Source of the DNA: Betaproteobacteria bacterium
GTDB lineage: Bacteria > Pseudomonadota > Gammaproteobacteria > Burkholderiales > JAEUOS01
Direction: 5' to 3'
NCBI GenBank assembly: GCA_028292405.1
Contig: JAQGMJ010000087.1
Span: forward strand, 1-64,000
DNA: 64,000 nucleotides
Part shown: positions 15,645 to 61,673 of the stretch, piece after piece
Position numbering within the stretch: the stretch's first letter is position 1
How the letters are laid out: each line of letters starts with the position of its first letter
Notes under the pieces: model-generated
Database searches by the model: none
Told to the model about the DNA's origin: nothing
The model's input: only the letters and a program-made list of their open reading frames with translations
Made by a program: the position numbers and the translations under genes

Positions 15645-15676
15645 ACAAAAACGCGGGGCAACCTCCGCGTTTTTGT
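15645..15676. terminator. Bidirectional intrinsic terminator
   Basis: A perfect 12-bp stem (ACAAAAACGCGG paired with CCGCGTTTTTGT) with an 8-nt loop. It has T-runs on both strands, so it can end the forward DSD1-type gene and also stop transcripts reading leftward past nadV. Confidence 0.8.
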
Positions 15677-15696
15677 TCGTGGCTTTTAAGTCCCAA

Positions 15697-15780
15697 AAAA
15701 TCGTCCGCGCGTCTACGTAAATGCGGCCGGCGATTTTGCCTGGCCAGCCCAGCAAAGGCAGGTTTTTACTTTTGCCTGCC
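15697..15780 (-). repeat. Bipartite 3'-end palindrome, copy 1 (A1+B1), after nadV
   Basis: Read in the direction of nadV. Unit A1 (15780-15757) begins 2 nt after the stop codon and has the shared core CAAAAGTAAAAACC with a degenerate right arm. GGCAGG/CCTGCC form its stem. Unit B1 (15737-15697) pairs AAAATCG with CGATTTT around a long GC-containing loop. It belongs to the same family as the copies at 48.8, 51.8, 54.4, 60.6 and 60.8 kb. Confidence 0.55.
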
Positions 15781-15782
15781 GC

Positions 15783-46777: not shown

Positions 46778-48754
46778 GTGAACAGCGTCAACCTGGTCGA
46801 AAGGTTCCAGCTCTATAGCTCGTGGCGCTTCGCCGTCGGGCAGGCGGTGACGCGCTTTCGCGACTGGATCAGCGAGGCCGGCCTGATCGATACCGCTTCG
46901 GCTTCGCGCATCAACCGCGTGCTGGAGCGCCTGTCCGAAGACAAGCTGTCGATCGCCTTTGTCGCCGAGTTTTCGCGCGGCAAGTCGGAGCTGATCAACT
47001 CGATCTTTTTCGCCGACTACGGCAAGCGCATCCTGCCCTCCTCCGCCGGGCGCACCACCATGTGCCCGACCGAGCTGATGTACACGGAGGGCGAGAGCCC
47101 GGCGCTGCGCCTGCTGCCGATCGAAACCCGAGCCAAGACCGCTAGCGTTTCCGAATACAAGCAATACCCCGAAGAGTGGGTCAGCCATCCGCTCGACACC
47201 AGTTCAGGCGACGCCATGCTGGCGGCCTTCAAGCATGTGAGCCAGGTCAAGCGGGTGACGGTGGAAGAAGCCACGCAACTGGCGCTGTACGATGCCAAGG
47301 ACCCGGACCAGCAAAGCTCGGTGGGCGCCGACGGCCTGCTGGAGATTCCCTGCTGGCGCCATGCGGTGATCAACTTCCCGCACCCGCTGCTGGCGCAGGG
47401 CCTGGTGATCCTCGACACCCCGGGCTTGAACGCGATCGGCGCCGAGCCGGAACTGACGCTGAACCTGATTCCCTCCGCGCACGCGGTGCTGTTCGTGCTG
47501 GCGGCCGACACCGGCGTGACCAAGTCGGACATCCAGGTGTGGCGCGAGCACATCGGCGGCGGCGAGGCGACCAAGCGCGCGCGCATGGTGGTGCTCAACA
47601 AGATCGACGGCCTGTGGGACGAACTGAAGACCCAGGTGGAGATCGACGCCGAGATCGACAAGCAGGCCGCGCAGGTGGCCTCGATGCTGGCGCTGGACGT
47701 GAAGAATGTGTTCCCCATTTCGGCCCAGAAGGGCCTGGTGGCGAAGGTGCACAACGACGCCAGGCTGCTGGCCAAGAGCCGCCTGCCGCGCCTGGAAGCG
47801 GCGCTGTCGCAGGAGCTGATCCCGGCCAAGCAGGACATCGTGCGCGACTTCGTTTCCGCGGAGATGCGCGACGTGGTGAGCTCCAGCCAGTCGCTGCTGG
47901 CCTCGCGCATGAACAACATCAAGGACCAGTTGCGCGAGCTGGAAGACCTGCAGGGCAAGAACGAGGACGTGATGCAGCACATGCTGCAGCGGGTGCGCAC
48001 GGAGAAGGAAACCTTCGAGAAAAGCCTGCTGCAGTTCGCCGCCACCCGCAGCGTGCTGGCGCGCAGCACCAACACGCTGTTCCAGCACCTGGGGATGGAA
48101 GCCTATCGCGACGAGGTGAAGGCGACCCACGCGGCTATCGACAGCGCCGTCTTCTCCGCCGGGGTGCTCGACGCGATGCGGCGCTTTTTCAAGGACAACC
48201 GCGAGTTGTTCGAGCGCACCAACACCGTGGTCGGTGAAATCTCCACCATGATGGAGTCGATGTACAAGAAGTTCAGCGGCGAGTTCGGCCTGCGCCTGGC
48301 CGCGCCGGCGCAGTTTTCGATGCTGCGCTACATGAAGGAAGTCGACCGCGTCGAGGAGAGCTTCAACAAGCGCTTCGGCGCGATGAGCATGATCACCGAG
48401 TACAAGAAGGGCATCGCCTCGCGCTTTTTCGGCGTCGTGGCCTCGCGCATCCAGACCGCCTTCGAAGTCGCCAACCGCGACGCAGAGGCCTGGCTGAAGG
48501 CGGTGATGAACCCGCTGGAGGCGCAGATCAAGGAGCGCCAGCAGCAGTTGCGCCGCCGCCTGGATTCGATCAAGCGCATCCACGACGCCACCGACACCCT
48601 GGAAGACCGGGTGCAGGAACTGCACGACACCGAGAAGTCGATGACCGCGGAGGTGATCGCGCTGGACCACCTGCGCGAGGAACTCGCTGCCATGCTGGCG
48701 CAGGAGATGATCAACTCGGTGGATGCGGAGCAGGGGTTCGATCTCACTTTGTAG
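46778..48754 (+). CDS. Dynamin-like GTPase
   Basis: A 658-residue GTPase starting at GTG 46778, which is preceded by GGGGAG. The N-terminal G-domain has G1 AEFSRGKSELINS (about 65-77), a G2 region GRTTMCPTELMY, G3 ILDTPGLNA and G4 VVLNKIDGLWDEL, then PISAQKG. After it come long helical stretches (about 350-658; KDQLRELEDLQGKNEDVMQHMLQRV, DTLEDRVQELHDTEKSM) typical of the dynamin stalk and assembly region. No membrane helix is seen, so any membrane action would be by peripheral binding. It stands alone in its transcription unit; its cellular role in this genus is not known to me. A bipartite palindrome begins 1 nt after the stop. Confidence 0.88.
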   Translation: MNSVNLVERFQLYSSWRFAVGQAVTRFRDWISEAGLIDTASASRINRVLERLSEDKLSIAFVAEFSRGKSELINSIFFADYGKRILPSSAGRTTMCPTELMYTEGESPALRLLPIETRAKTASVSEYKQYPEEWVSHPLDTSSGDAMLAAFKHVSQVKRVTVEEATQLALYDAKDPDQQSSVGADGLLEIPCWRHAVINFPHPLLAQGLVILDTPGLNAIGAEPELTLNLIPSAHAVLFVLAADTGVTKSDIQVWREHIGGGEATKRARMVVLNKIDGLWDELKTQVEIDAEIDKQAAQVASMLALDVKNVFPISAQKGLVAKVHNDARLLAKSRLPRLEAALSQELIPAKQDIVRDFVSAEMRDVVSSSQSLLASRMNNIKDQLRELEDLQGKNEDVMQHMLQRVRTEKETFEKSLLQFAATRSVLARSTNTLFQHLGMEAYRDEVKATHAAIDSAVFSAGVLDAMRRFFKDNRELFERTNTVVGEISTMMESMYKKFSGEFGLRLAAPAQFSMLRYMKEVDRVEESFNKRFGAMSMITEYKKGIASRFFGVVASRIQTAFEVANRDAEAWLKAVMNPLEAQIKERQQQLRRRLDSIKRIHDATDTLEDRVQELHDTEKSMTAEVIALDHLREELAAMLAQEMINSVDAEQGFDLTL

Positions 48755-48755
48755 G

Positions 48756-48828
48756 CACGCAAAAGTACAATCCTACTTTTGCGTGGTGATTGCTAAAAAA
48801 TCGCTGGCGAAGCCAGCCGATTTTTTAG
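48756..48828 (+). repeat. Bipartite 3'-end palindrome, copy 2 (A2+B2), after the dynamin-like gene
   Basis: A2 (48756-48785): exact 12-nt arms CACGCAAAAGTA and TACTTTTGCGTG with a 6-nt loop, starting 1 nt after the stop. B2 (48793-48828): left arm CTAAAAAATCGCTGGC, loop GAA, right arm GCCAGCCGATTTTTTAG, with one unpaired base. A conventional terminator follows. Confidence 0.8.
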
Positions 48829-48843
48829 AGGAAGTGCTACGAG

Positions 48844-48872
48844 AAAAATGGGCGCCTTTGGCGCCATTTTTT
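48844..48872 (+). terminator. Intrinsic terminator after the dynamin-like gene
   Basis: Stem AAAAATGGGCGCC with GGCGCCATTTTT (one G bulged), loop TTT. The T-run faces the forward strand and the mirrored A-run also allows termination of the leftward ferredoxin gene, whose stop is at 48895. Confidence 0.8.
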
Positions 48873-51711: not shown

Positions 51712-51749
51712 GACTTGCCGCCTTTTGATTTTTCGTCGCTTTTACTTTT

Positions 51750-51853
51750 AAAAAATCATCTGCCATTTACAAAAACCCGGCCAGTGATCTTTACAACTTG
51801 GTTCCACCCAAAAGCGCCAGCTTTCTTTTAAAAGAAAGCTGCGCTTTTGGGTG
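51750..51853 (-). repeat. Bipartite 3'-end palindrome, copy 3 (A3+B3), between the M16 genes
   Basis: Read in the direction of the upstream M16 gene. A3 (51853-51805) begins 1 nt after the stop, with the outer arms CACCCAAAAGCG and CGCTTTTGGGTG and an additional inner stem AGCTTTCTTTT/AAAAGAAAGCT; one base is unpaired. B3 (51792-51750) is a long-loop form with AAATCA/TGATCTT arms and TCTGCC/GGCCAG. It lies within an operon. Confidence 0.65.
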
Positions 51854-51854
51854 T

Positions 51855-53288
51855 TCAATCGGCGCGCATCCCCTTCGGCGGTCCCCGCGGCTTGTCGGTG
51901 ATCGGCAGCGGCGTCAGGGTGGCGATGGTCAGCGTGTCGTCGCCGAAATAGGTTTTCGCCGCCGCCTGCACCTGCTCGGCCGTCACGGCCTTGAGCTTTT
52001 CCAGGATGCGGTCGATATTCTTGTGCGAGATGCCGACCATTTCGTACTGCGCGATTTCCATCGCCTGGCCGAAGATCGAGTCGCGCTTGTATACCTGGGA
52101 GGCAATCACCTGCGCCTTGACGCGCTTGAGCTCCGCTTCGGTCACGCCGCTGTCAGCAATCTTTTTCACCTCGCCGCGCAGCGCCGCTTCCAGGTCGGCC
52201 ACCGTCTTGCCATCGGCCGGCACGCCTTCAAGGGAGAAGCTGGTGGGGCCGCGCGAGGTGCTGTCGTAGCCGGCGCCGGCTTCGTGGGCGATGCGCTGCT
52301 CGCGGATCAGGTTTTTGGTGATGCGCGCGCCATCGTGGCCGTCGAGCACACCGGCCAGCACTTCCAGCGCGTAGGGGTCGCTGTCCTTCTCGACATCGAG
52401 GAGCTTGGGCACCCGCCAGCTCATGATGAGATAGGGCAGCTCGGCCGGCGCCTTGACGTTGACGCGGCGGATGCCGCGCTGCGCCGGCTCGTCCTGCGGC
52501 TTGCGCTCGGGCAAGGCCTTGGCCTTGATCCCGCCATAGTATTTCTTCGCCAACGCCACCACCTGCGCGGCCTGGACGTCGCCGATGACGATCAGCACGG
52601 CGTTGTTCGGCGCGTACCAAGTGTTGTACCACTTGCGCGCGTCGGCGCCGGTCATGGTTTCGAGATCGCGCATCCAACCGATCACCGGGTGATGGTAAGG
52701 GTGCGCGGTGAATTGCGCCGCCTGCGCGGCCTCATACAGCAGCGCGCGCGGCTGGTCGTCGGTGCGCCAGCGCCGCTCTTCCATCACCACCTTAATCTCC
52801 TTGGCGAACTCGGCGTCGGTGAGATTCAGGTTGGCCATGCGGTCTGACTCGAGCTTCATCACCAGTTCGAGCTTCGACTTGTGGATCTGCTGGAAATACG
52901 CCGTGTAGTCGCGGTTGGTGAAGGCATTCTCGCGCCCGCCGGCAGCCGCCACGCGGTTGGAAAACTCGCCCGGCGGCACCGACTTCGTGCCCTTGAACAT
53001 CATGTGCTCGAGGATGTGCGCCACCCCTGTGGTGCCATTGAATTCGTCCATGCTGCCGGCGCGGTACCACACCATGTGGGCGATGGTCGGCGCGCGATGG
53101 TCTTCCTTGACGATGATCTTCAGGCCGTTGGGCAGCGTGGTCTCGAAGGTGCCGCCGTGGCCCGCTGACGCCGCCGCGGGGGCCGCGGCAGGCGGAGCGG
53201 CCAGCGCCCCATTGGCAACCAGCCCTGCCGCCAGGGTGCCGAAAAGCACAACCTGGATCAAGGCTTTGAAACGGGGAAATTTTTTCAT
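51855..53288 (-). CDS. M16-family zinc peptidase, catalytic subunit
   Basis: A 477-residue exported peptidase with an N-terminal signal (FKALIQVVLFGTLAAGLVANGALA). The inverted zinc motif HxxEH is GVAHILEHMMFKG with His91, Glu94 and His95, and the downstream ligand Glu is in KVVMEERRWRTDDQP. It forms a chamber-type enzyme, probably with the HxxEH-less M16 protein encoded next. Substrates are probably short or unfolded peptides in the periplasm. It is divergent from ftsY, with a 13-bp palindrome between the two starts. Confidence 0.94.
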   Translation of the reverse strand: MKKFPRFKALIQVVLFGTLAAGLVANGALAAPPAAAPAAASAGHGGTFETTLPNGLKIIVKEDHRAPTIAHMVWYRAGSMDEFNGTTGVAHILEHMMFKGTKSVPPGEFSNRVAAAGGRENAFTNRDYTAYFQQIHKSKLELVMKLESDRMANLNLTDAEFAKEIKVVMEERRWRTDDQPRALLYEAAQAAQFTAHPYHHPVIGWMRDLETMTGADARKWYNTWYAPNNAVLIVIGDVQAAQVVALAKKYYGGIKAKALPERKPQDEPAQRGIRRVNVKAPAELPYLIMSWRVPKLLDVEKDSDPYALEVLAGVLDGHDGARITKNLIREQRIAHEAGAGYDSTSRGPTSFSLEGVPADGKTVADLEAALRGEVKKIADSGVTEAELKRVKAQVIASQVYKRDSIFGQAMEIAQYEMVGISHKNIDRILEKLKAVTAEQVQAAAKTYFGDDTLTIATLTPLPITDKPRGPPKGMRAD

Positions 53289-53424: not shown

Positions 53425-54438
53425 ATGTTTTCGATGTTCAAACCCAAGCCTCCCAAAGAGGCAGCCCCGGTGGCCGAAGCAAGCGAGAAACCCGCAGCCG
53501 CCGCGGTAGCGGCGGAAGAGGCGCCGGAACCGGCCAAGGCCTCCTGGGGCGACCGCCTGAAGGCGGGGTTATCGAAGACCCGTTTTCAGCTCAATTCGCT
53601 GTTTACCGGCATCAAGGTCGATGAGGCCCTGTTCGAAGACCTGGAAGCCGCGCTGATCAGTGCTGACTGCGGCGTGCCCGCAGCGCAAACCCTGATCGAG
53701 CAACTGCGCGCCCGCGCCAAGCGCGACAAGATCGAGGACGGCGAGACCCTGAAGCGCGCCTTGGCCGACCTGATCACCGACATGCTGCGTCCACTGGAGC
53801 GAGCGATGAACCTGGACCGCCCCAAGCCCTTGGTGGTGATGATCAGCGGGGTCAACGGCGTCGGCAAGACCACCAGCATCGGCAAGCTCGCCAAATATTT
53901 CCAGTCACGCGGCAAGAGCGTGCTGCTGGCCGCCGGCGACACCTTTCGCGCCGCCGCACGCGAGCAGCTCGTCACTTGGGGCGAGCGCAACAACATCGCG
54001 GTCATCACACAGGAAAGCGGCGACGCCGCCGCGGTGATTTTCGATGCCACCCAGGCGGCAAAGGCGCGCGGCATCGACATCCTGATGGCCGACACCGCCG
54101 GCCGTCTGCCGACCCAGCTGAACCTGATGGAAGAGATCAAGAAGGTCAAGCGCGTGATCGCCAAGGTGGACGCCAAAGCGCCGCACGAAGTGCTGCTGGT
54201 GATCGACGCCAACACCGGGCAAAACGCGGTGGCCCAGGTGAAGGCTTTCGACGATGCGCTCGGCCTTACAGGTCTTGTCGTCACCAAGCTCGACGGTACC
54301 GCCAAGGGCGGCGTGCTGTGCGCGATTGCCAATGCGCGGCCCAAGCCGGTGTATTTCATCGGCATCGGCGAAGGCATCGAAGACCTGCGGCCGTTCAAGG
54401 CGCACGAGTTCGCCAACGCGATGCTCGGACTGGATTGA
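53425..54438 (+). CDS. ftsY: Signal recognition particle receptor FtsY
   Basis: GTPase docking SRP-ribosome complexes at the inner membrane. 337 residues with a short Ala/Glu/Lys-rich acidic A-domain (about 1-45) and the NG domain. GTP motifs: GVNGVGKTTSIGKLAKYF (P-loop), AGDTFRAAAREQL, ADTAGRLPTQLNLMEE (Walker B-type DTAGR), and TKLDGTAKGG. Gly-Ile-Gly-Glu (FIGIGEGIEDLRPF) ends the fold. It heads the ftsY-ftsE-ftsX run; a bipartite palindrome begins 2 nt after the stop, before ftsE. Confidence 0.97.
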   Translation: MFSMFKPKPPKEAAPVAEASEKPAAAAVAAEEAPEPAKASWGDRLKAGLSKTRFQLNSLFTGIKVDEALFEDLEAALISADCGVPAAQTLIEQLRARAKRDKIEDGETLKRALADLITDMLRPLERAMNLDRPKPLVVMISGVNGVGKTTSIGKLAKYFQSRGKSVLLAAGDTFRAAAREQLVTWGERNNIAVITQESGDAAAVIFDATQAAKARGIDILMADTAGRLPTQLNLMEEIKKVKRVIAKVDAKAPHEVLLVIDANTGQNAVAQVKAFDDALGLTGLVVTKLDGTAKGGVLCAIANARPKPVYFIGIGEGIEDLRPFKAHEFANAMLGLD

Positions 54439-54440
54439 GG

Positions 54441-54514
54441 CCGACAAAAGTGCAAACTTACTTTTGTCGGGGATTATCCTGCATTAAATCGCTGGCGGAG
54501 CCAGTCGATTTCAT
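54441..54514 (+). repeat. Bipartite 3'-end palindrome, copy 4 (A4+B4), between ftsY and ftsE
   Basis: A4 (54441-54470) starts 2 nt after the ftsY stop with arms CCGACAAAAGT and ACTTTTGTCGG around an 8-nt loop. B4 (54483-54514) has ATTAAATCGCTGGC, loop GGA, and GCCAGTCGATTTCAT, again with one extra base on the right arm. No T-run follows, so read-through into ftsE is likely. Confidence 0.75.
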
Positions 54515-54569
54515 GAATCAACGGCAAGAAAAACCCAAGGTGCGGCGCGTTCAGGCTGCCTTCAAATAA
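54513..54569 (+). CDS. Possible 18-codon leader peptide before ftsE
   Basis: ATG 54513, which uses the last bases of the B4 palindrome, opens MNQRQEKPKVRRVQAAFK and ends with TAA overlapping an ATG of the ftsE frame (TAATG). The peptide is strongly basic and resembles no known family. There is no Shine-Dalgarno match directly upstream. It may be a chance frame, or a translational coupler between ftsY and ftsE. Confidence 0.2.
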   Translation: MNQRQEKPKVRRVQAAFK

Positions 54570-54601
54570 TGAGTGCTGCCGCAAAAGAAAAGTCGGGCGC
54601 G

Positions 54602-55279
54602 ATGATCGAGTTTTCGGCGGTCCACAAGCGCTATCCCGGCGGCTATGAGGCGCTGAAGAATGTTTCCTTCAGCGTCGCCGAGGGCGAGTTGGTGTTCCTG
54701 CTCGGCCACTCCGGCGCGGGCAAGAGCACGCTGCTCAAGCTGATTCCGCTGATCGAACGCGTCAACTCCGGCAGCGTGATCGTCGGCGGGCAGAACGTAT
54801 CGAAAATGCGCCCGCAGGCGATTCCCTTCCTGCGGCGCAACGTCGGCCAGATTTTTCAGGACCAGAAGCTGCTCTACGACCGCAGCGTGTTCGACAATGT
54901 GATGCTGCCGCTCAACGTCACCGGCGTGCACCCGCGCGACGGCGCGCGACGCGCGCGCGCAGCGCTCGACAAGGTGGGCCTGTTGCCGCGCGAGAAGTCG
55001 AACCCGATCGCCTTGTCCGGCGGCGAGCAGCAGCGCCTGGCGATCGCGCGGGCCATCGTCAACCGCCCGTCGATCCTGATCGCCGACGAGCCTACCGCCA
55101 ATCTCGACGCCGGTTACGCCGCCGAGATCATCGACCTGTTCGCCGCTTTCAGCCAGGTCGGCGTCACCGCGCTGATCGCCACCCACGATGCCAATGCGGT
55201 GGCGCGCGCGGCGGCCAAGGTGAAGACCCGCACCATCGAGCTGCGTGCCGGAGAACTCGTCGCAGGGGCCCCTGCATGA
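54602..55279 (+). CDS. ftsE: Cell-division ATP-binding protein FtsE
   Basis: ABC-type ATPase that with FtsX controls peptidoglycan hydrolases at the division site. The start ATG 54602 aligns with E. coli FtsE (IEFSAVHKRYPGG) and gives 225 residues; an ATG at 54569 adds 11 residues and would overlap the leader-peptide stop. Motifs: Walker A GHSGAGKST, LSGGEQQRLAIARA signature, LIADEPTANLD Walker B, and ATHDA switch His. It overlaps ftsX by 4 bp. Confidence 0.95.
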   Translation: MIEFSAVHKRYPGGYEALKNVSFSVAEGELVFLLGHSGAGKSTLLKLIPLIERVNSGSVIVGGQNVSKMRPQAIPFLRRNVGQIFQDQKLLYDRSVFDNVMLPLNVTGVHPRDGARRARAALDKVGLLPREKSNPIALSGGEQQRLAIARAIVNRPSILIADEPTANLDAGYAAEIIDLFAAFSQVGVTALIATHDANAVARAAAKVKTRTIELRAGELVAGAPA

Positions 55280-60378: not shown

Positions 60379-60582
60379 ATGAAAATCCTCGTCGTCGTCA
60401 TTCTCGTCGCCATTCTGGTCAGCCTCGGTTCCGCCCTGGTATTCCTGGTCAAGGACGGCGGCAAGACCAAACGCACGGTCAATGCCCTCACCGTACGTAT
60501 CAGCCTTTCGCTGGCTTTATTCCTGTTCCTGATGTTTGGCTACTACATGGGCTGGTTCGTTCCCAACCACGGCCCCGTGTAG
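60379..60582 (+). CDS. DUF2909 twin-transmembrane protein
   Basis: A 67-residue membrane protein with two helices (LVVVILVAILVSLGSALVFLV and ISLSLALFLFLMFGYYMGWF) separated by the KDGGKTKRTVNALTVR loop, the DUF2909 pattern. It is a usual companion of cytochrome oxidase genes in betaproteobacteria. It is the only forward gene in the cluster. A bipartite palindrome follows its stop. Confidence 0.9.
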   Translation: MKILVVVILVAILVSLGSALVFLVKDGGKTKRTVNALTVRISLSLALFLFLMFGYYMGWFVPNHGPV

Positions 60583-60586
60583 GGGA

Positions 60587-60661
60587 CACCCAAAAGTAAA
60601 AACCTACTTTTGGGTGGTTCCAGCTAGCTTGCAATTGCCGGCAAAGCCGGCCAATTGCAAG
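60587..60661 (+). repeat. Bipartite 3'-end palindrome, copy 5 (A5+B5), after the DUF2909 gene
   Basis: A5 (60587-60616): arms CACCCAAAAGTA and TACTTTTGGGTG, loop AAAACC; it starts 4 nt after the stop. B5 (60628-60661): CTTGCAATTGCCGGC, loop AAA, GCCGGCCAATTGCAAG, with one base unpaired. It mirrors copy 6 across the terminator. Confidence 0.85.
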
Positions 60662-60682
60662 AATCAAAGGCTACAAAAAAAC

Positions 60683-60708
60683 AAAACGCCGCTTCGAAGC
60701 GGCGTTTT
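60683..60708. terminator. Bidirectional terminator between the DUF2909 gene and ctaE
   Basis: Exact 26-bp palindrome with AAAACGCCGCTTC left arm and a T-run on both strands. It stops the forward DUF2909 transcript and the leftward ctaE transcript. Confidence 0.85.
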
Positions 60709-60731
60709 TGCATTTTCGTGGCCTTTGATGC

Positions 60732-60803
60732 TTGAGAATCGTGCGGCTTTGCCGTCGATTCTCAAACTGATCAGTCCGGCCAAAAGTAGGTTTTTACTTT
60801 TGG
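60732..60803 (-). repeat. Bipartite 3'-end palindrome, copy 6 (A6+B6), after ctaE
   Basis: Read in the ctaE direction: A6 (60803-60780) has CCAAAAGTA/TACTTTTGG arms and AAAAACC loop, starting about 6 nt after the ctaE stop. B6 (60765-60732) has TTGAGAATCG/CGATTCTCAA outer arms, CGGC/GCCG inner stem and an AAA loop. It is the mirror image of copy 5. Confidence 0.8.
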
Positions 60804-60809
60804 ACGAAC

Positions 60810-61673
60810 CTATAACCAGTAGACCACGATAAACAGGCCCAGCCACACCACGTCGACAAAGTGCCAGTACCAGGCAGCGGCTTCGAAGGCGAAATGATGG
60901 TCGGGCGTGAAATGCCCCTTGGCACAGCGGAACGCGATCACCGTCAGCATGATCGCGCCGATGGTCACGTGAAAGCCATGGAATCCGGTGAGCAGGAAGA
61001 ATGTCGAACCGTAGATGCCGCTGGTCAGCTTCAGGCCAAGTTCGGTATAGGCCTCGTGGTACTCGTAGGCCTGCAGGCAGAGGAACAGCGCGCCCAGGGC
61101 GATGGTGAGGATCATGAACAGCAGCAGCACGCCGCGCTTGTTGTCCTTTAGCGCGTGGTGGGCGATGGTCAGCGTAACGCCGGAAGTCAGCAGCAGCAGG
61201 GTGTTGATCGCGGGGATCGGGAACGGCGACATCTTGCCGAACTTGTCGAAAGCTTCCGGGCCGGCGGTGGGCCATTGGCCGGCGAAGTCGGGCCACAGCA
61301 GCTTGTTGTCGAGGTCGGAAAGCCACGGCAGCGCGATGTTGCGGGCGTAGAACAGGGCGCCGAAAAAAGCCGCGAAGAACATCACTTCGGAGAAGATGAA
61401 CCAGCTCATGCTCCAGCGGAAGGAGACGTCGACCTTGTGCGAATACTGCCCGCTTTCGGACTCGCCGATCACCGTGCCGAACCAGCCGAACAGCATGTAG
61501 ACCAGCATGGCGAAGCCGAAAATCACCAGCCAGTAGCCGGGCGGCAGGTCGTTGAACCAGGTGGCCGCGCCGATGGCCATGCAGAACAGGGCGAACGAGC
61601 CCTTGATCGGCCACGACGAGGGGGCGGGGATGAAATAGGCCGGCGTGGTGCCGGGTGCGTGCGATGCGCTCAT
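60810..61673 (-). CDS. ctaE: Cytochrome c oxidase subunit III
   Basis: Seven-helix structural subunit of the aa3-type oxidase, 287 residues, starting at ATG 61673 after GGAGAGAGG. WSMSWFIFSEVMFFAAFFGALFYAR carries the conserved Glu of helix III, and the C-terminal YWHFVDVVWLGLFIVVYWL is the signature of helix VII. PIPAINTLLLLTSGVTLTIAHHAL and FFLLTGFHGFHVTIGAIML also match. It follows the DUF2970 gene on the same strand. Confidence 0.97.
   Translation of the reverse strand: MSASHAPGTTPAYFIPAPSSWPIKGSFALFCMAIGAATWFNDLPPGYWLVIFGFAMLVYMLFGWFGTVIGESESGQYSHKVDVSFRWSMSWFIFSEVMFFAAFFGALFYARNIALPWLSDLDNKLLWPDFAGQWPTAGPEAFDKFGKMSPFPIPAINTLLLLTSGVTLTIAHHALKDNKRGVLLLFMILTIALGALFLCLQAYEYHEAYTELGLKLTSGIYGSTFFLLTGFHGFHVTIGAIMLTVIAFRCAKGHFTPDHHFAFEAAAWYWHFVDVVWLGLFIVVYWL

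Follow-up and report, generated by a model that had tools for sequence, protein, structure and literature searches.

An apparently unnamed family of dispersed two-hairpin elements, REP-like in habit, found mainly behind stop codons in a betaproteobacterial genome

ERIC, NEMIS/Correia, RUP and other MITE-like repeats are dispersed palindromic intergenic repeats, as is the element described here, and some of them carry the terminal inverted repeats of an insertion sequence together with target duplications. REP, REPIN and BIME sequences (GTAG and CGTC superfamilies) also resemble it, since they are described as occurring in many short palindromic copies in spacers near the 3' ends of upstream ORFs, with bulges or mismatches, dimers and a patchy distribution (PMC3733652, PMC12306157). 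In an earlier study cited in PMC12306157, 260 of the 496 REPs counted in E. coli lay no more than 15 nt from a stop codon, where they can stall ribosomes. A further relative in habit is BRE from Bordetella and its relatives, which is ~90 bp long, dispersed, present in several Betaproteobacteria and endowed with mobile-element features (PMC3110155).

The initial annotation of the window (the whole 64,000-nt stretch of DNA analysed) described a recurrent two-part palindrome in six copies. A covariance model built from 38 copies finds 101 of them in the genome at E ≤ 0.1 (5.53 Mb in 89 contigs, 92.9% complete and 4.1% contaminated), which disposes of the concern that few or no further copies would exist. 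With up to three mismatches, the hairpin-A pattern matches five times in the window against 0.03 expected in shuffles, and genome-wide it has 39 exact matches (reversed control pattern, 0) and 85 near ones (control, 6). Alignment on the A core gives a conserved unit of ~98 nt, made up of two distinct hairpins whose order does not vary; conservation starts ~6 nt 5' of the A core and stops at the tail motif. Hairpin A has the consensus CAAAAGTA-mAAACC-TACTTTTG within a variable 4-bp outer arm; its inner stem is invariant, its loop (A/C)AAACC is asymmetric, and positions -4 to -1 vary among copies yet pair with +1 to +4. A linker of ~14 nt leads to hairpin B, which consists of a variable outer arm around AATCRCYGGC-RRA-GCCRG-(one bulged base)-YGATT, with a purine-rich tri-loop that is replaced by a longer loop in a minority of copies, and is followed by the consensus tail GCNACGAAAA / TNAAANGCNACGAAAA. 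The single unpaired base noted initially in B stems is nearly constant: 80 of the 81 short-loop copies of this genome have it, as 1 nt on the 3' side, and it recurs in 61 of 67 diverse copies. B is located on the CC side of the A loop in the copies read. The copies have 35–54% GC, with an AT-rich core, within a genome of 64% GC. Their mean pairwise identity is 61%, with a median of 80% and a best value of 91% to the nearest neighbour, and they form subfamilies. As there are no near-identical copies, there is no sign of recent movement and, judged by their sequences, the copies in this genome are old.

All six copies in the window lie where they had been placed, the six host genes are those named initially (Pfam: NAMPT/NAPRTase, Dynamin_N, Peptidase_M16, SRP54 for FtsY, DUF2909 and COX3), and hairpin A starts 1–4 nt past the stop codon in every one. 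Copy 1 (15673..15782, minus strand; R1 model match of 47.1 bits), 3' of the nadV-like gene, has its hairpin A core at 15753–15774, while in copy 3 (51729..51857, minus strand, 46.5 bits; 51750–51853 as first annotated), 3' of the M16 peptidase gene, the A loop is replaced by an extra inner perfect hairpin, CAGCTTTCTTTTAAAAGAAAGCTG. Both possess the long-loop form of hairpin B and the other four the short GGC-RRA-GCC form, in agreement with the first description. Copy 2 (48752..48846, plus strand, 88.2 bits) follows the dynamin-like GTPase gene, whose stop ends at 48754, and contains hairpin A at 48756–48785 with the outer arms CACG/CGTG. Copy 4 (54437..54534, plus strand, 85.1 bits; A at 54441–54470) is situated between ftsY and an ABC ATPase gene, which is ftsE-like (54569–55279). 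Copy 5 (60583..60680, plus strand, 94.3 bits) belongs to the DUF2909 gene, where by direct reading the stop ends at 60582 and the arm starts at 60587; it comprises A at 60587–60616 (CACC/GGTG), B at 60628–60661 and the tail GGCTACAAAAA, and its folding z is -6.6 as RNA and -6.2 as DNA. Copy 6 (60712..60810, minus strand, 89.9 bits), 3' of ctaE (COX3), comprises A at 60777–60806 (CGTC/GCCG, with one mismatch), B at 60732–60765 and the tail GGCCACGAAAA. These two convergent gene ends thus each have their own copy, flanking a shared bidirectional intrinsic terminator, AAAACGCCGCTTC/GAAGCGGCGTTTT (60683..60708, no strand; inverted repeat I22), which has orthologous terminators in relatives that lack the elements.

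Hairpins after stop codons would suit a transcription terminator or a DNA-uptake signal, the latter of which can lie in terminators, but we regard either as extremely improbable. Separate terminators follow the element and many copies lie between co-directional genes, so the initial opinion that it is not a normal terminator stands; moreover, same-family relatives keep one terminator between ctaE and a convergent DUF2909-like gene without any element. Instead of a GC stem with an unpaired U-run, hairpin A is followed by NNNGG, and in B the T-rich ends take part in pairing. As to an uptake signal, 220 kb of sequence contain the half-site CAAAAGTA 2 times where 2.0 are expected, so it is not enriched.

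Nearly all of the 101 copies are outside genes, and the genes preceding them are diverse (by eye, with a few checked by Pfam). The A side starts 0–6 nt past a stop codon in 65 of 72 scorable copies, against 12.4 expected from random placement in the same spacer and at most 26 in 100,000 simulations; these counts are approximate, since genes were called with a simple home-made ORF finder, which missed at least DUF2909 and ignores tRNA genes. The link to stop codons seen in the window is thus retained genome-wide. The tail side has no such effect (2 of 48 against 8.0 expected), and in most of the copies that are not stop-flush hairpin A abuts the start-codon region. Only 2 copies lie in divergent spacers, compared with 34 of 173 background gene pairs. 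Co-directional spacers contain 42 forward and 18 reversed copies, the latter having the A side near the start codon, typically 7–14 nt off. The rule that orientation follows the upstream gene, proposed initially, therefore holds within the window and fails genome-wide, where about one fifth of the copies are reversed with A at the start region of the next gene; it is a bias and not an absolute. The possibility that the element supplies new stop codons was rejected, as the stops of ctaE and ftsY coincide in alignment with the stops in relatives.

This placement directly behind stops, the avoidance of promoter spacers and the forward bias of 42:18 would be expected of a cis-acting RNA element (a 3'-end stabiliser, an intercistronic insulator or a ribosome-proximal roadblock) selected at each gene end, with dispersal being incidental, and the ribosome stalling reported for REPs ≤15 nt from a stop (earlier work cited in PMC12306157) points the same way. 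The 18 reversed co-directional copies speak against it, and on all the evidence, including that presented below, we consider it unlikely.

Orthologous sites in relatives are found both empty and occupied, and several sites that have a copy here (ftsY, ctaE-DUF2909 and atpG-atpD) are empty in same-family genera. Nine relatives with the same gene order possess only a short spacer at the ftsY site; in the same-family genomes G001–G004 the ftsE-like gene comes directly after ftsY with a spacer of ~15–20 nt, which is filled by the element here. The element is also absent 3' of ctaE in ten relatives and from atpG-atpD in four. Comparison with these empty sites revealed no target duplication at the ftsY and ctaE sites, unlike some MITE-like repeats. 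On the other hand, three genera of the family have the element 3' of groEL and three genera have it at a second site (L164, L275 and L287); three species belonging to one genus, together with a genome of a different family (G297), have it at atpD-atpC, and three species of genus g61 at iscS-iscU. At the retained sites the layout is unchanged, with both sides of the arms having diverged. That copies stayed at groEL and atpD-atpC over genus and family boundaries would suit the cis-acting RNA element. The iscS-iscU spacer of G003 contains a diverged element (L284) in which A is rewritten around GGTGCGGATCCGCACC and B and the tail are kept, suggesting that further copies are missed by both search models.

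Pairing is maintained while the arms change. Of the cells in this genome 96% are paired, and 146 carry a change on both sides, against 44 in shuffles; across lineages double changes occur in 20 of 26 pairs, with 310 double-changed cells against 80. These totals were reached in 0 of 500 shuffles, a control that keeps relatedness in, and slid controls fall to ≤59. The compensatory changes from which selection on pairing had been proposed are accordingly real, as the product of selection or of another pair-preserving process. One-sided intermediates are rare. For the outer A arms the ratio of G-U to A-C is 7:7 in this genome and 13:13 in others; for inner B it is 4:17. Selection on one RNA strand would predict G-U clearly above A-C; as the two are equal and both rare in the variable A arms, what is kept appears to be Watson-Crick pairing and not single-strand RNA pairing, which counts against the cis-acting RNA element. 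The A core does have a G-U excess (26:12, P=0.03), which across lineages comes mostly from one loop-closing pair (12 cells), and the excess in outer B (19:10) is not significant. Hairpins formed in DNA, a structure that both strands require, or template switching would each suit the pattern. Between RNA and a cruciform, the two settings suggested initially, it does not decide, and the variable arms, having no excess of G-U over A-C, argue only against one RNA strand acting alone.

Template switching during replication is a published route to compensatory changes (PMC8794818) and could keep the arms complementary in a purely selfish, functionless repeat, for which one-sided intermediates should be nearly absent, as they are here. 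It should also erase the B bulge and invert the A loop; 80 of 81 copies nevertheless keep the bulge and, in those read, the loop has its CC side towards B, neither of which is expected of template switching alone. As the retention across genera also opposes it, a functionless repeat is decidedly unlikely. The Watson-Crick pairing, the AT-rich core in a 64% GC genome and the 3'-end position might alternatively indicate that a nucleoid or topology protein binds the element, as double-stranded DNA or as a cruciform, at the ends of transcription units; this is very improbable, as the asymmetric loop and the bulge point to a hairpin and not to a duplex site, and the element occurs in few genera of the order.

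Exact matching against the genomes of 84,980 species yielded 71 stretches, all in betaproteobacterial records. By model, the element is present within Burkholderiales in 17 of 399 genomes and 8 of 159 sampled genera, and in 0 of 368 other genomes of the class; since ~10 candidates per genome were scored in these scans, the copy numbers obtained are lower bounds. The same-family genomes G001–G004 contain 3–7 copies each (101 candidates scored). The distribution within Burkholderiales is thus patchy, even among relatives, which is a further point against an RNA element selected at each gene end.

The forms found elsewhere are diverse, and in some genomes the copies are dense and partly nested or inverted tail to tail. 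Tail-to-tail pairs ~20 nt apart (L111, L123, L120, L083 and L074) have tails that can pair, giving a five-hairpin palindrome. A long form in the Massilia MAG RYN_587 (JAQGNM; L097, L103, L105 and L109) has an extra linker domain of ~45 nt with foldable stems and a recurring ACCGGCTTAnnnGCGCAAAGCCAGTCAG-like sequence. Multi-copy matches in G076 and G315 were pursued as a transposon lead, which was rejected because they are copies of one ~5.5-kb repeat, apparently rRNA operons; the element adjoins a tRNA gene in all copies of this repeat that were fetched (L237, L238, L239, L240 and L248). The only two exact matches to the A core in viral contigs are in two putatively viral collection entries (L309 and L310), and a plasmid search with one element copy as query gave no match.

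The statement in the initial annotation that no named family has this arrangement is upheld. Rfam gave no match in the window at the gathering score and sub-threshold matches in four loci only at relaxed thresholds, and literature searches by the core word, and for double-hairpin elements and beta repeats, turned up no description of it. As a high-copy intergenic palindromic repeat, with 101 copies nearly all outside genes, it shares the habit of REPs, which lie near the 3' ends of upstream ORFs (PMC3733652). However, it is ~98 nt long with two stems, whereas a REP unit is 20–40 bp with a single stem, and it has no unpaired GTAG or CGTC tag at a fixed end position: CGTC is one arm variant only, and the tail is GCNAC and not a fixed CTAC. 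Unlike GTAG-superfamily REPs it has no flanking RAYT, although CGTC REPs are not flanked by RAYT either (PMC3733652). Since tag, length and RAYT flanking all disagree, it does not belong to the REPs; its stop placement is also much tighter than theirs, and near-identical copies are missing. No element was found by the R1 model near Y1 transposase (PF01797) loci, 3 here and 26 elsewhere, and a Y1 match is absent in 7 of 22 searched genomes, many of which are incomplete MAGs. BRE is set apart by its description and not by sequence: it has 63.7–78.9% GC in Bordetella, is often tandem and sometimes lies inside coding sequence (PMC3110155), whereas the present copies are of lower GC and almost all outside genes. 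No exact A core was found in contigs titled Bordetella, Polaromonas or Delftia. The element is thus best read as an apparently unnamed, old, dispersed REP-like family with its own anatomy, whose spread and function are putative.

Among the three roles initially suggested (3'-end stabiliser, pausing or attenuation device, and REP-like mobile repeat), the last fits best, given the empty sites in relatives and the subfamilies, yet without REP tags and a flanking RAYT. These are probably non-coding DNA elements of two hairpins, dispersed and comparable to REP/BIME in habit, spreading as follows. The element would be recognised as a single-stranded DNA hairpin, with the A loop, the B tri-loop and the bulged base as recognition features, and would spread as a non-autonomous element by an enzyme acting in trans. 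Copies would lodge in the interval from the stop codon to the terminator or the following gene, where they spare promoters and reading frames. The transcript would then bear two stable hairpins right behind the terminating ribosome, which, by analogy with REPs, may shield the mRNA end or intercistronic junction or slow that ribosome. At some sites, such as groEL and atpD-atpC, copies have persisted over genus- or family-level divergence with their arms rewritten in complementary pairs. Several observations stand against this reading: no mobilising gene was found (none of the 29 Y1 loci has an element nearby), near-identical copies that would indicate recent movement are missing here, a random mobile element is not expected so exactly at stop codons, and some excess of G-U is seen in the A core. 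The least understood finding is the near-zero distance to the stop, for which either targeted insertion or survival of flush copies only may account. A combined account, in which a hairpin-recognised mobile element is placed precisely at ORF ends by its insertion machinery or by the cell and is then long kept by pair-preserving change, is unlikely.

The family offers a clean natural test case for the question of why REP-like repeats are located at gene ends. Its placement ≤6 nt from stops is far sharper than has been reported for the E. coli REPs overall, orthologous sites with and without the element are available side by side, and the arms provide dozens of paired changes, which could tell apart RNA-level, DNA-level and purely mutational explanations.
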